From a virus, in IMG/VR virus record IMGVR_UViG_3300036861_001106, positions 45,531 to 109,530 of that record: a stretch of DNA of 64,000 nt; one strand, written 5' to 3'. Of the stretch, positions 12,159 through 46,626 are shown piece by piece (position 1 is the stretch's first letter; each line of letters starts with the position of its first letter). The notes beneath the pieces were generated by a model. That model saw only the letters and a list, made by a program, of their open reading frames with translations, ran no database searches and was not told the origin of the DNA. Made by a program: the position numbers and the translations under genes.

Positions 12159-12524
12159 ATGGCCTCGTTTGACTTCAACCAGACCGCCGCCGTGATCGAC
12201 GGCACGACGACCACAACCTACCAACCAGTCGACTTCACCGACGCCAATGTCGCAAAGCATCTGGAGAAGGATGTGAACGTCGCCGCGCTGGCCACGGACG
12301 CGGAGATCAGCCTGGACGGGCTGACGGTGAAGCACCTGCGGCTGGTCTGCGGGGCCACCATCTCCGTGAAGCTGAACGGCACGGGCAACACGGCCATCGC
12401 GTTGACCCCGAACGCCGACCACCCGGCGGTGCTGTGCCTCATCGGGTGCAACGTGACGTCGATTCACGTGACCAACACCGGCGCCTCCGCCGTGGAGTTG
12501 AAGCTGATCGCAATGGCTGAGTAG
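12159..12524 (+). CDS. virion-type small beta protein, 121 aa
   Basis: ATG at 12159 after AAAGGAGTG. Soluble, beta-rich with TTTTTYQPVDFTD near the N-terminus and repeated Val/Thr strands. Resembles small decoration or head-tail structural proteins in composition only. A GAAC...GTTC inverted repeat lies in the short gap upstream. Confidence 0.6.
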   Translation: MASFDFNQTAAVIDGTTTTTYQPVDFTDANVAKHLEKDVNVAALATDAEISLDGLTVKHLRLVCGATISVKLNGTGNTAIALTPNADHPAVLCLIGCNVTSIHVTNTGASAVELKLIAMAE

Positions 12525-12533
12525 AGGAGGAAC

Positions 12534-12737
12534 ATGGGCAACTGGGCAATCACCATCCAGGGCATTGGTGCCCATCACAACAAGCTTAACTCGGGCGACG
12601 CCAACCGGATGGCCCGGAGATTTGTCCGGCAGTTGCGGAACGCGGGGCACACCGTCGTGCGGGCTGACTTCACGCACGGGGCCAACGAGGACCTCTGCGA
12701 CGAGCACCTGGCACACCCGGACGATCGGCTAAAGTAA
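12534..12737 (+). CDS. conserved small phage protein, 67 aa
   Basis: ATG at 12534 after TAGAGGAGG. Begins GNWAITIQGIGAHHN and contains DANRMARRF and RNAGHTVVRADFTHG, a pattern I associate with small phage or plasmid proteins of unknown role. Soluble, His-rich. Confidence 0.65.
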   Translation: MGNWAITIQGIGAHHNKLNSGDANRMARRFVRQLRNAGHTVVRADFTHGANEDLCDEHLAHPDDRLK

Positions 12738-12768
12738 GATTCTTCACGCGCGGCGAAAGGAGTAGGCA

Positions 12769-13671
12769 ATGCCCGAGCAGACCCTCGACATGCGCGCCTA
12801 CATCTTGCCGCGCTACACCCCCACGGCCTTTGGTGACGCCCCGGACGACAGCATCGGTGGCATCGCCACCACCGACGCGCCCCCCGCGCTCGACTACTAC
12901 GAGGGTGAGCAGGAGCAGGCCACCACCCGCGGCGACGCCAGCCTCCCCGTCTACATCTGGGACCTGGGCGTGCCCACGGTCGGTGGCGTCGTCACCGTGC
13001 GCCTGCGGATGCGGGCCAACATCCGCAAGACGCAGGAGCAGACGATCCAGCTCCGCGCCAAGGTCACCAACCAGGTCCTGCGGCAGATCCAGATTCGTGC
13101 CTACGTCGTGCGCCCGGTGCGAAAGACCATCAGGATGCGAGCCCGGATCTTCACGGGCGTCTCCACCAAGACCATCCGCCTGCGCGCGAACGTCCGCAAC
13201 ACGGTGACCCGCACGCTCACCATGCGTGCGTCGATCCAGCGGCCCAACTTCCAGATTCAGCTCCGGGCCAGGATCACCAAGGCGGTGTCGCAGACCATCC
13301 AGCTCCGCGCGGCCATCACCCCGCAGACCCTGCAGAAGATCGATCTTAGGGCCAACATCCAGGCAGTGGCCACACAGTCGCTGCAGATGAGGGCAAGAAT
13401 CCAGCCCTTCACCGACCTGCAGATGCGGGCGAGGATCCGGCAGGTCGTCTCGACTACGCTGGAGCTGACCTGGAACGCCGCCGAGCCCCTGCGGTCGCCG
13501 CTGCTCCTCACCTGGAACGCGGGCGAGGGCACGCGGACGTCACACGTCATCACGATGCGCGCGATGATCGTCAGCCCACGCAGCACGACGGTGGAGCTGG
13601 AGTGGCGGGTGGAGGCGCCGGTACCCGAGGGGCCGGTCACGGAGCCGATTCAGAAGCTGGAGACACCCTGA
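12769..13671 (+). CDS. LRARI-repeat protein, probable virion fibre
   Basis: 300 residues from the ATG at 12769 (AAAGGAGTAGG upstream). Residues about 78-245 are an array of 14-18-residue repeats built around TIQLRAxI or TLxMRARI (IQLRAKV, IQIRAYV, IRMRARI, IRLRANV, LTMRASI, IQLRAAI, IDLRANI, LQMRARI). Two LELTWNAxE/LLLTWNAGE units follow. Such short alternating repeats suggest a beta-helical or trimeric fibre shaft. The same repeat occurs in the tail-hub gene at 13876-16809, so the two proteins probably pack together. The ATG of the next gene overlaps the stop. Confidence 0.75.
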   Translation: MPEQTLDMRAYILPRYTPTAFGDAPDDSIGGIATTDAPPALDYYEGEQEQATTRGDASLPVYIWDLGVPTVGGVVTVRLRMRANIRKTQEQTIQLRAKVTNQVLRQIQIRAYVVRPVRKTIRMRARIFTGVSTKTIRLRANVRNTVTRTLTMRASIQRPNFQIQLRARITKAVSQTIQLRAAITPQTLQKIDLRANIQAVATQSLQMRARIQPFTDLQMRARIRQVVSTTLELTWNAAEPLRSPLLLTWNAGEGTRTSHVITMRAMIVSPRSTTVELEWRVEAPVPEGPVTEPIQKLETP

Positions 13672-13868
13672 TGCCAAGTTCAGAGGACTTTGAGCGGGTG
13701 CGCCCTCTCCTGCGGGAGGCAGCGCACTTGTGGAGCAACTACCGCGACTTCTACCGTCACTTGACGGTGGAGGAAAGGGTTTACTGCCTCCCACCCTCCC
13801 TGGTGGAAGATTTTGAACGGCTGGGGAAGGTGATCGGCGACGTCGATCTGACCATGGCTGACATCTAG
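13671..13868 (+). CDS. hypothetical helical protein, 65 aa
   Basis: ATG at 13671 in a TGATG overlap with the repeat protein. Charged, helical, no membrane segment. Lies between two repeat-sharing virion genes and may be a chaperone or connector; no family recognised. Confidence 0.6.
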   Translation: MPSSEDFERVRPLLREAAHLWSNYRDFYRHLTVEERVYCLPPSLVEDFERLGKVIGDVDLTMADI

Positions 13869-13875
13869 GGGCTAA

Positions 13876-16809
13876 ATGGCACGCTACGGTCTTGTCATCG
13901 CGCTCGACACAGGGCGCCTCGTGCAGATTGACCACGACACTGGGGCGTGGGTCCGCAACTACGGCGCCCTGAACGAGACCTGGGCCGGCAACGTCAGCGA
14001 CTTCGACCCGACCACCGGGCTGCCCACCCCGGAGGCCCTCGGCGCGACCGACACCAGCAACCCCTGCGGCACGACGGCGACCAGCGCGCTCGCCTACCTG
14101 CTGGACCCCAGCACCTGCCGCGTCCTCGCCTTCGACCCCCTCACCGGTGACCTCTATGCCACCTTCGGCGGTCGGCGCGGGATCGGCAGCGGCAAGATCA
14201 CCCCGGACCCCACGCGGCGCTCCATCATCGCGCTCGCGAATGGCAAGATCTGGGTCACCGACAATGCGGGCGACTTTCTGGTCCAGTTTGCCACCGGGGG
14301 CACCTTCGAGGCGGACCACGCCATCAGCGGGTGGGCCACGGCGCTCAGCCTCGCCTTTGACCAGTGCACGGGCTTCGCCTTCGACGTGGCGCGGCAGCGG
14401 TACTGGGCACTCGTCGGCGCCACCGCCACGACGTACCTCATCGAGCTGGACACCAGCCTCGTGCCCACCGGCACGGTCATCGACCTCACGACGCGCCTGG
14501 CCAGCAGCCTCGGCATCACGGTCAGCGGCCACGGTGGGAGTGACCTGGGGCGTGCGCAGACCCGGGGGCTCTTCTTCCACAACGGCTACCTGTGCCTCAC
14601 CTCCACGACCTACGTCGTCAAGGTCGACCTCACCAACAGCAGCGGGGATCAGCTCCTCAAGACGTTCGCGCAGGACGTCGGCCCGGGCGCCTGGGCCAGC
14701 GATGGGACCGAGTTCTCCTTTGTGGGGCGCGACCAGGTGGACGGGCAGCCAGTCGTCCACGTCCTGACCGTTGCCACCCTGGCGGAGCGCACGTACGGAT
14801 TCCAGGTCACCGTGGACGATGGCGACCCCACCCACGTGGCTGCGCCGTGGGACTTGACCGTCTCCCCCAACGTTGAGGACCCCAGCACCCGCACCAGCCG
14901 GGACCTGCAGGTCCGGGCGCGCATCCAGGCCACCGCCACGCGCGGCATCCAGCTCCGGGCCAGCATCCGCAACACCGTCCCGCGGACCCTCGACGCCCGG
15001 GCGCGCATCCTCCAGGGGGCCATCCAGCAGCTCACGATGCGGGCCCGCATCGTCGAGGCGACGACGCTGCTGGACCGCATGACGACGGCCTGGACGCTGG
15101 AGGACAGCGTCGGCAGCTTCAGCCGCGGGCTCACCCTGAGCTGCGCGGCCAACCCGGGGCTGGCGGTGGGGGACACCGTGACGCTCTACGCGGGCTACAA
15201 CGACCCCGTGGACGGACCCACCCTGGTCAAGGTCTTCCACGGCGAGGTGGACGACGTCACCGTGGCGGAGGAGGCGGACTCCGCCCTCTACACCTTCACC
15301 CTGCGGGATGTGGGGGCCAAGGAGGCCAACAGCCGCCGGGTCACCCGCACGACGCAGACGCAGTTCCCGCGCACGACGACCGACGTGCCGTCGGTGAACG
15401 CGAACAACGCCCTGCTGGACCATGGAATTCTCAACCTGCCGGACTTTGAAGCTGGCGTAGGCGCTGGTGCCCCAGCCTTCTCCTTCTACGGCAACTTCAC
15501 GGCGCGGGACGTGTCGCCCATCCAGGTCCTGCAGCAGCTCACCGAGCCGTGGAACCTGTTTGCCAGCAACCAGTACTACCCCACTGTGCGCGACGGGCGC
15601 ACCTTCAGCCAGCACATCAACTGGGCCAACCCACCAGCGGATGGGTACCGGCTCCCCCGGGCCCGGCTGACCAGCCAGGTGCTGAAGCAGCAACGGTACA
15701 TTGAATCGCCCAACCTGGTGGGGCTGGCCATCCAGGTGCGCGGCGCGACCTTCACGCTGCAGATCATCGACCAGCTCGGGCCGCAGACGCGGATTGAGTA
15801 CATGCGGTCGCTGGCCCAGAGCGACGTCACGACCCCCAGTGCCAGCAACATTGGCACCACGGCCTTCGCCACCGAGTACGTGCTCACCGAGACCAGCAAC
15901 GTCGAGGAGACCTGGGGGGACAAGGTGCTGTCGCGCACCTCCGAGACCTACGAGTCGCGGTTCACCTCCACGGACGGCGGCGGGGGGGGCACGAAGCTCA
16001 TCCACCGGGAGGTGGAGGCCAACCTGTACTTCGAACCGCCCGGGGACCTTGGCTTCGACTCCATCCAGACCTCCAGCGCGGGCCCCTCCCCGCTGGCGCT
16101 GCCGCTGCAGGTCAACTCCATCGTGTCCGGCATCGACCCCACCGACTCGGTCTTCCGGGAGCTGCAGCGCACGCAGACGAACTACTACTACGATGCCAAG
16201 AACAACCTTGCGGCGGAGAGCACGAGCGTCACCCTCTTCGATTCAAGCACCAACACCTGGAAGCTGGACAGCGTCCAGCAGCGGTTCCACAGCGAGACCA
16301 CCGGGGGCAGCACGCGCACGCGGCGGCTCTCCTTCGCCAACGACGATGGCACGCTCACCTTCGACACGGCGGATGGCCAGCAGGTCGGGGGACGCCGGCC
16401 CAACCCGGCCCTCATCTCGGGCCTCGCCTCGGTGGTGACGTCGCAGGCGATGTTCCCGATCCCTGACATTGTGGTCGACTTTCTCGGCTCGCACGTTAGC
16501 CTCCCGGTGGCCACGCCCACGTGGCTCTACGAGAACCCACTCCTGGGGCAGGACGACTGCGAGACGGTCTACAGCTTGGCGGTCACGGAGCAGGGGCTGC
16601 AGGCCAACCCGCTGGTCCGGTGGGAGACGATCGACTTCGCGGGGCCCTTCGACCCGAACCTGCAGTCGGGCATGGCCCTCCAGTTGGAGCGCCAGCCCGG
16701 GGTGTGGGTGGACTACTGGGTGGAGAGCGTCGCCCACAGCTACACGGCGGACGAGGCACTGTCCCGGGGGTCGGCCAAGAGGATCACAACTGACCCGCTG
16801 CCAGCATAG
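13876..16809 (+). CDS. tail hub/baseplate protein with N-terminal propeller-like and LRARI repeat regions
   Basis: 977 residues. Residues about 1-330 repeat blades of the type GRLVQIDHDTG / LVPTGTVIDL / TYVVKVDLTN, suggesting a beta-propeller. Residues about 340-400 carry LRARI units (LQVRARI, IQLRASI, LDARARI, LTMRARI) shared with 12769-13671. From about 400 a hub-like domain begins (WTLEDSVGSFSRGLTL, VGDTVTLYAGY, VFHGEVDDVTV, YTFTLRDVGAKEANSR), as in phage tail hub (gp27 / late control D-like) proteins that describe a rotated reference frame. The C-terminus is long and beta-rich. The fusion is unusually large for a hub. Directly followed by a small OB-fold-like protein, the expected baseplate partner. 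Confidence 0.7.
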   Translation: MARYGLVIALDTGRLVQIDHDTGAWVRNYGALNETWAGNVSDFDPTTGLPTPEALGATDTSNPCGTTATSALAYLLDPSTCRVLAFDPLTGDLYATFGGRRGIGSGKITPDPTRRSIIALANGKIWVTDNAGDFLVQFATGGTFEADHAISGWATALSLAFDQCTGFAFDVARQRYWALVGATATTYLIELDTSLVPTGTVIDLTTRLASSLGITVSGHGGSDLGRAQTRGLFFHNGYLCLTSTTYVVKVDLTNSSGDQLLKTFAQDVGPGAWASDGTEFSFVGRDQVDGQPVVHVLTVATLAERTYGFQVTVDDGDPTHVAAPWDLTVSPNVEDPSTRTSRDLQVRARIQATATRGIQLRASIRNTVPRTLDARARILQGAIQQLTMRARIVEATTLLDRMTTAWTLEDSVGSFSRGLTLSCAANPGLAVGDTVTLYAGYNDPVDGPTLVKVFHGEVDDVTVAEEADSALYTFTLRDVGAKEANSRRVTRTTQTQFPRTTTDVPSVNANNALLDHGILNLPDFEAGVGAGAPAFSFYGNFTARDVSPIQVLQQLTEPWNLFASNQYYPTVRDGRTFSQHINWANPPADGYRLPRARLTSQVLKQQRYIESPNLVGLAIQVRGATFTLQIIDQLGPQTRIEYMRSLAQSDVTTPSASNIGTTAFATEYVLTETSNVEETWGDKVLSRTSETYESRFTSTDGGGGGTKLIHREVEANLYFEPPGDLGFDSIQTSSAGPSPLALPLQVNSIVSGIDPTDSVFRELQRTQTNYYYDAKNNLAAESTSVTLFDSSTNTWKLDSVQQRFHSETTGGSTRTRRLSFANDDGTLTFDTADGQQVGGRRPNPALISGLASVVTSQAMFPIPDIVVDFLGSHVSLPVATPTWLYENPLLGQDDCETVYSLAVTEQGLQANPLVRWETIDFAGPFDPNLQSGMALQLERQPGVWVDYWVESVAHSYTADEALSRGSAKRITTDPLPA

Positions 16810-45835: not shown

Positions 45836-46507
45836 CTAGGCCAGCTTCAGGACCGGCCACTTCTTGCGCTTCAGAAAGCCGAGTGCGCCGAACCCCAGCA
45901 GCCCCAGCGAGCAGGGCTCGGGGACCGGGTTAGGTAGGCAGTCGCCCTTGTCGTAGCGGAACTGTGCCATGGCGAAGTCCACGTCGGAGTGCGCCACGAC
46001 CTTCGAGAACAGCGCGCCGTCGTCCACCGAGGCGAACAGCCGTGCACCCGCCGCGCCATCCACGGGGCGCGTGATGCTGCCCAGCAGCACGTCACCGGCG
46101 TCGTAGAAGTCCGCCGTGATGTCATGCACCGCGAACGGGTTGGGCTCCGCCTCGAAGCCGAAGATGCTCGTCGGGGAGCTGAGGAGCATCGTGACCGAGG
46201 TGGCTCCCTTGGTCCACAGGACCGCGGGGGTGGCGCTCTCGCTGTCCGGGGGGCTGCTCCAGGTCGCCCAGCCGCCGCCCGGGACCGTCCGCTTCTGCAT
46301 CAAGGAAGAAAACGAGACGGTCTCCGTGCCGTCCGTGATCGAGCCGACGTCAGTGAAGTTGGGCAACCCACTGAAGTCGATCTTCGTGGTGACGAAGGTG
46401 TACAGCACGGACGGCGAGGAGATGTCCTCAAAGGTGGCGTGCGCCGGGCGGGGGCACGCCGCGCAGGTCAGCAGCAGCGACAGGGCGACCAACAGCTTGT
46501 GCTTCAT
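45836..46507 (-). CDS. secreted PEP-CTERM-anchored protein
   Basis: 223 residues from the ATG at 46507 with GGGGAGGAG upstream. Sec signal peptide (MKHKLLVALSLLLTCAACPR, cleavage near AHA), a mature beta-rich domain of about 170 residues with few cysteines, and a C-terminal sorting signal: VPEP, a hydrophobic helix (SLGLLGFGALGFL) and the basic end KRKKW. Host exosortase (EpsH family) would recognise this and process the protein to the surface or matrix. PEP-CTERM proteins are typically chromosomal surface or floc proteins, so this is most unusual in a phage. A perfect sigma-54 promoter and structured leader lie upstream; a terminator follows. Confidence 0.85.
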   Translation of the reverse strand: MKHKLLVALSLLLTCAACPRPAHATFEDISSPSVLYTFVTTKIDFSGLPNFTDVGSITDGTETVSFSSLMQKRTVPGGGWATWSSPPDSESATPAVLWTKGATSVTMLLSSPTSIFGFEAEPNPFAVHDITADFYDAGDVLLGSITRPVDGAAGARLFASVDDGALFSKVVAHSDVDFAMAQFRYDKGDCLPNPVPEPCSLGLLGFGALGFLKRKKWPVLKLA

Positions 46508-46517
46508 GTAACTCCTC

Positions 46518-46598
46518 CCCCTCGCGGGGCTGTCAGGGGCTCCTTGCGGAGCCAGTTCCTCACCCGGCGCGACCCTCTCACGGGTCCCTGGCGTCGGG
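46518..46598 (-). promoter_or_regulatory. structured 5' leader of the PEP-CTERM mRNA
   Basis: Three stem-loops follow in order after the predicted start: a long stem 46,598-46,563 (CCCG/CGGG outer, CGC/GCG, GACCC/GGGUC around GUGAGA), GGCUCC-GCAA-GGAGCC (46,553-46,538) and CCCC-GCGA-GGGG (46,529-46,518), the last two with GNRA tetraloops and ending against the ribosome site. No known riboswitch consensus was recognised. Confidence 0.5.
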
Positions 46599-46610
46599 CA
46601 ACTTGCTTGG

Positions 46611-46626
46611 TGCAACCTCCGTGCCA
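46611..46626 (-). promoter_or_regulatory. sigma-54 (-24/-12) promoter
   Basis: Minus strand TGGCACG (46,626-46,620), GAGG, TTGCA (46,615-46,611): exact match to the sigma-54 consensus with the required N4 spacing. Transcription would start near 46,600, about 93 nt before the PEP-CTERM ATG. PEP-CTERM genes in known bacteria are controlled by RpoN with PrsK/PrsR. Confidence 0.8.

Follow-up and report, generated by a model that had tools for sequence, protein, structure and literature searches.

A tailed phage carries a gene for a PEP-CTERM protein behind an exact sigma-54 promoter element. This gene most likely encodes a functional exosortase substrate and is most likely an accessory gene of the phage, and we lean towards the view that it is transcribed by host RNA polymerase with sigma-54 and that its product is displayed on the infected cell. 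The window analyzed here is a stretch of 64,000 nt (bases 45531-109530 of a 109,530-base IMG/VR virus record), and positions within it are marked w. The features of the locus are as follows:

w45836-46507 (-): PEP-CTERM protein gene, 223 aa with the stop included (open reading frame, profile matches, dN/dS)
w46436-46507 (-): part coding for the signal peptide, 24 aa (by reading the sequence; an unrelated one in a second phage)
w45863-45928 (-): PEP-CTERM sorting signal with PEP, hydrophobic helix and basic cluster (profile matches)
w46508-46600 (-): predicted leader, 93 nt
w46611-46626 (-): exact sigma-54 -24/-12 element TGGCACGGAGGTTGCA (exact match to TGGCACG-N4-TTGCW)
w46632-46889 (-): upstream phage gene, 85 aa, whose stop is followed after 5 nt by the -24 element
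w45812-45791 (-): terminator-like stem-loop 3' of the PEP-CTERM gene

The PEP-CTERM gene starts at an ATG with the ribosome-binding site GGAGGAG. Its signal peptide was read as MKHKLLVALSLLLTCAACPRPAHA, and the C-terminus of the protein is VPEPCSLGLLGFGALGFLKRKKWPVLKLA. Scores exceeded the curated cut-offs of both sorting-signal profiles, PF07589 (21.4 bits, cut-off 20.7) and TIGR02595 (18.3 bits, cut-off 16), and no other PEP-CTERM match was found within the 109.5-kb record. The record contains the terminase, DNA polymerase and portal genes of a tailed phage, together with one reading frame with the head protease and the major head protein, which agrees with the initial annotation in placing a signal-peptide/PEP-CTERM gene in a phage. 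Seven extra residues (WPVLKLA) follow the basic cluster and are identical in the second phage; such a tail is unusual for the PEP-CTERM family. Structure prediction with two sequences as input gave a mean pLDDT of 36.7, which is too low for use.

The second phage, a viral IMG/VR contig of 62 kb (3300036861_000916, hereafter G001), carries the same PEP-CTERM gene, and its sample number neighbours that of a near-identical fragment of the phage studied here. DNA identity between the two copies begins in the signal peptide, amounts to 88.6% across 605 bases and ends at the stop codon. No other long DNA segment common to both phages is so well conserved: those of more than 250 bp showed 68-76%, and among all the other shared segments a single 50-base stretch was the exception to this range. 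The mature parts are more than 90% identical at the protein level, and their dN/dS of 0.15 implies that purifying selection has acted on the protein since the two phages diverged. Judged by sequence, therefore, the gene is real and under selection. No further homolog was identified among the phage records searched, among plasmids, or in 398 Pseudomonadota genomes, the last of which were searched with a profile of the two phage proteins. Peptide words also found none in genome contigs, which is a weak negative based on two words only. A match (L007/L222) of GGGWATWSS in a cell-wall-enzyme-like protein was rejected as a short chance or repeat match.

The surroundings of the two copies have little in common. 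Their signal peptides are unlike, the upstream DNA is unrelated, and no -24/-12 element could be found at the G001 copy, where the best candidate has 3 mismatches. As read from the sequence, the G001 copy is clustered with other genes for exported proteins, and a sigma-70-like TTGACA-17-TATCCT precedes them. The small exported-protein gene right behind it has a homolog (78%) in our phage at record position 13343-13711; this homolog belongs to a cluster at record positions 12213-15813 (+) that encodes small exported proteins, none of them with a known domain. Although the comparison is thin, with the two phage copies and a single distant homolog from bacteria, the exported part of the gene looks like a movable unit that is joined to different leaders and control regions. 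Thus, gene and promoter do not travel together, and the initial proposal that the phage took the gene and its control region as one piece did not hold; nor does the phage gene have the upstream element of its planctomycete homolog (see below).

The promoter element itself, in contrast to its origin, was confirmed. TGGCACGGAGGTTGCA has the form TGGCACG-N4-TTGCA, with the -24 GG and -12 GC correctly spaced and 12 out of 12 consensus positions, whereas only 0.02-0.05 exact matches per 109.5-kb record would be expected from Markov models (order 1-5) of the record. It occupies the bases 119-104 nt before the ATG and begins 5 nt past the stop of the upstream gene. The resulting element-to-start distance of 103 nt is inside the range for bacterial PEP-CTERM genes, in which the motif lies on average 71 nt (range 23-221) from the start codon (Haft 2006, PMC1569441). 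The DNA upstream of the element is coding sequence of another phage gene, and a nearby enhancer would fall inside w46632-46889. About 65-77 nt upstream lies an ACGTT-CTC-AACGT dyad, which we did not count, because arms of five bases are expected by chance. One contig with the same 17-mer (G003) was set aside as chance, the site being inside a gene of an unrelated phage.

Two more exact sites, which had gone unseen in the initial annotation, were identified near a pair of ParB-like genes:

w40288-40303 (-): second exact -24/-12 element, overlapping the end of an SNF2-type helicase gene; a ParB-like gene has its ATG 25 nt downstream
w39276-40262 (-): ParB-like gene, no Pfam match over cut-off, PHROG 21315
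w39470-39485 (-): third exact -24/-12 element, inside the first ParB-like gene, with the next gene about 205 nt further on
w38350-39264 (-): second ParB-like gene, PHROG 5931

The ParB-like label is our reading of the two sequences, which match only PHROGs of unknown function. A transcript from the site at w40288 would have a leader of about 15 nt, which contains a ribosome-binding site. All three exact sites (w46611, w40288 and w39470) are on the minus strand within 7.2 kb, and the relaxed core GGCACG-N4-TTGC matched the same three places only in the record (reversed control, 0). When synonymous codons were shuffled with all proteins and the intergenic site kept, three sites were obtained in none of 300 shuffles. 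The density of exact sites is 27 per Mb in the phage versus 1.1 per Mb in seven bacterial genomes that were chosen for carrying such sites (39 in 35.6 Mb; reversed control, 7). No word of at least 8 bases is shared upstream of all three.

Two motifs were described for Proteobacteria, a motif 1 of 17 nt with TTTACA at its end and, about 63 nt further downstream, the sigma-54 motif 2; the combination was seen in this group only (Haft 2006, PMC1569441). In addition, pepA of Aquincola tertiaricarbonis RN12 is RpoN1-dependent (PMC9850573). The sigma-54 control of bacterial PEP-CTERM genes on which the initial annotation relied is therefore well founded in these reports, and a planctomycete genome with an exosortase (G552, see below) also points to it. 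For the PrsR regulon we required motif 1, TGTCGG-N5-TTTACA, 32-92 nt before motif 2. To re-derive the box, bacterial genomes were scanned for TTTACA-N50-80-TGGCACG-N4-TTGCA, which yielded 33 sites of the form TGTCRR-N5-TTTACA, most with spacings of 52, 62-64 or 73-76 nt and many before PEP-CTERM genes. In the 260 nt before the -24/-12 site of the phage gene the box TGTCGG-N5-TTTACA (50-76 nt spacing) is absent, with a best score of -10.3 compared with at least 18 for true sites, which speaks against the PrsK/PrsR control that had been suggested. The phage gene resembles proteobacterial exosortase (EpsH) substrates in its signal peptide, PEP-CTERM signal, single-gene unit and -24/-12 element about 100 nt upstream (PMC1569441), but it is phage-borne, lacks motif 1 (the PrsR site), has coding sequence in the upstream space and carries the WPVLKLA tail. 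With Aquincola pepA it shares a PEP-CTERM gene behind a TGGCAC -24 element, for which the need for RpoN was shown in pepA (PMC9850573). That gene differs in its bacterial chromosome, its prsT neighbour and its predicted enhancer, and the phage protein belongs to another family (floc_PepA, 12.6 bits versus a cut-off of 80).

A bacterial homolog was detected in Planctomycetota, where the profile of the two phage proteins matched one of 199 genomes (G552; E 1.8e-12, 38% identity). The matching gene (L177:815-1753) encodes a PEP-CTERM protein that shares the words GxGWATWS, AEPNPF and DITA with the phage protein and ends in IPEPCTLTLLGLGALVTLRKRRSRR. About 97 nt before its start lies GGCACGGCAATTGC (GGCACG-N4-TTGC), and the genome has an exosortase and 25 PEP-CTERM signals. 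GGCAC-N5-TTGC was found within 130 nt of the start in 6 of the 15 PEP-CTERM genes whose start could be called, the homolog included, and nowhere else in the 179 kb of strand covered at these loci. Farther upstream, four of seven genes (one with a one-mismatch site counted) have GCGTTGC-N5-GTCAACATGC at 91, 91, 113 and 134 nt before the -24 element, and the 8.9-Mb genome holds exactly four exact copies of it, all at PEP-CTERM genes (L176, L177, L184 and L188). This sequence is a candidate for the enhancer of a PEP-CTERM regulon in Planctomycetota. It is absent before the phage gene; 54% of random phage stretches score as high as the region there. Thus, the search for homologs in exosortase-bearing bacteria, which had been proposed as a check, did yield one with the same kind of -24/-12 element, but its enhancer-like element is not in the phage. 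The two genes are alike in the homologous domain, the PEPC-type sorting signal and the GGCACG-N4-TTGC element; they differ in that the G552 protein is 38% identical and carries an additional domain ahead of the sorting signal, and that its gene has GCGTTGC-N5-GTCAACATGC upstream. Planctomycetota is a plausible, though not established, host phylum. A host call from the phage's own terminase and DNA polymerase was dropped; the best relatives reached 41% and 29%, respectively, and their hosts were mixed.

As for the transcript, a start near w46600, placed from the position of the -12 element, defines the predicted leader. The description of this leader as structured was not borne out: it folds at -44 kcal/mol compared with -39.6 (sd 3.9) for shuffles (z -1.13), and 21 of 200 shuffles fold as well, so that its structure is nothing special. 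A terminator of the gene's own, on the other hand, was found as claimed, with a 9-bp stem and a T-run at w45812-45791 (-). No sigma-70-like promoter could be observed in w44900-47600, and no minus-strand terminator is present in the 124-nt gap between the upstream gene and the PEP-CTERM gene; read-through could therefore suffice for expression. The upstream gene belongs to a long minus-strand block of small genes (w46632-63271).

Several other elements were noted in the record. Between the terminase and the PEP-CTERM gene, an HNH/endonuclease-VII-like gene (w45027-45515, -), visibly A+T-richer than its surroundings, is probably a homing endonuclease. An IscB-type protein (w50075-51619, -; RRXRR 231.6 bits plus HNH) has a HEARO/omega RNA (RF02033, 91.4 bits) directly upstream at w51385-51619, and the phage apparently carries a complete IscB locus. 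The structural-gene half contains a group I intron (RF00028, 79.4 bits) at w7839-8068 (+). In addition, three methyltransferase domains, a GT9 (heptosyltransferase-type) glycosyltransferase, a PfkB-type kinase and a cupin/mannose-6-phosphate-isomerase-like protein are encoded at w1413-5033 (+) and w20189-21537 (-). These are possible surface-glycan genes, which would fit, without proving, a broader surface-glycan effort by the phage.

How the -24/-12 element came to stand before this gene, and whether it is used, may be explained in different ways. Chance is very improbable. The same 17-mer does occur inside a gene of an unrelated phage, apparently by coincidence, but with 0.02-0.05 matches expected per record, far fewer would be expected within 130 nt ahead of this single gene, and PEP-CTERM genes had already been linked to sigma-54. 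We also consider it quite unlikely that a host cassette was captured whole (promoter and enhancer, leader, gene, terminator) and is still part of a host PEP-CTERM regulon. The host-like features are the exact core promoter, the place where it stands, and the terminator, and sigma-54 commonly controls such genes in hosts (PMC1569441 and our bacterial scans). However, neither the PrsR box nor the planctomycete element is present, the upstream DNA codes for another phage gene, and in the second phage the gene goes with a different signal peptide and different upstream DNA. The core promoter alone is host-like, and the evidence does not support capture of a host control cassette in full.

Somewhat more weight, though still as an unlikely case, may be given to transcription of the gene by read-through from the block w46632-63271 or from another promoter, with the -24/-12 element being a relic or idle. 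The same strand, the short gap free of terminators and the sigma-70-like promoter ahead of the G001 cluster are consistent with this, but an element with full consensus at the expected position would hardly persist without a maintained function. A slightly better, if tentative, case can be made for a small sigma-54 regulon of the phage's own, comprising the PEP-CTERM and ParB-like genes, in which the promoter is a phage element and was not brought by the gene. The clustering of three exact sites, their excess over expectation, bacterial density and codon shuffles, the second site 25 nt before an ATG, and the lack of a -24/-12 element at the G001 copy all favor it. On the other side, the two further sites are inside reading frames, the three share no upstream word, the phage record has no activator, and a search for relatives to check site conservation found none. 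It is likewise doubtful that such a regulon, run off host RpoN, would make the PEP-CTERM and two ParB-like proteins follow a host activator or physiological state instead of the normal lytic programme.

Display of a phage-borne exosortase substrate, made by host sigma-54 transcription, is the reading we prefer. It is favored by a PEP-CTERM signal above two curated cut-offs, the low dN/dS, an exact -24/-12 element at the usual bacterial position and the G552 homolog with its own such element in an exosortase-bearing genome; against it are the lack of a recognised enhancer element and of a phage activator, the G001 copy without the element, and the gap free of terminators behind the upstream gene. 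Sigma-54 polymerase requires an activator, and sites for activators other than those expected at the PrsR box or the planctomycete element may be present. Neither a sigma-54 activator domain nor an exosortase was found in the phage record, which may be incomplete, so that an activator could lie outside it; on the record as it stands, activation and processing would depend on the host. According to the display reading, a host NtrC-type activator would switch on host RNA polymerase with sigma-54, and a short single-gene transcript would begin near w46600 and end at w45791. The signal peptide would then export the protein, the PEP-CTERM helix would hold it, and host exosortase would process it, leaving the mature domain on the cell surface or in the matrix, where it would alter the surface properties of the infected cell. 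Promoter activity, activator, processing and surface role are inferred in this scheme. The purpose may be superinfection blocking, receptor masking or a matrix change, among which we make no ranking.

To our knowledge, sigma-54 has rarely been reported as used by phages, and no paper on phage-borne exosortase substrates was found in the literature searched. On the bacterial side, G552 points to sigma-54 control of PEP-CTERM genes, with a candidate enhancer, outside Proteobacteria, to which the 2006 survey had confined the combined motif. If the preferred reading is true, a phage would be putting its own protein on the host surface by means of the host sorting machinery, with expression tied to sigma-54.
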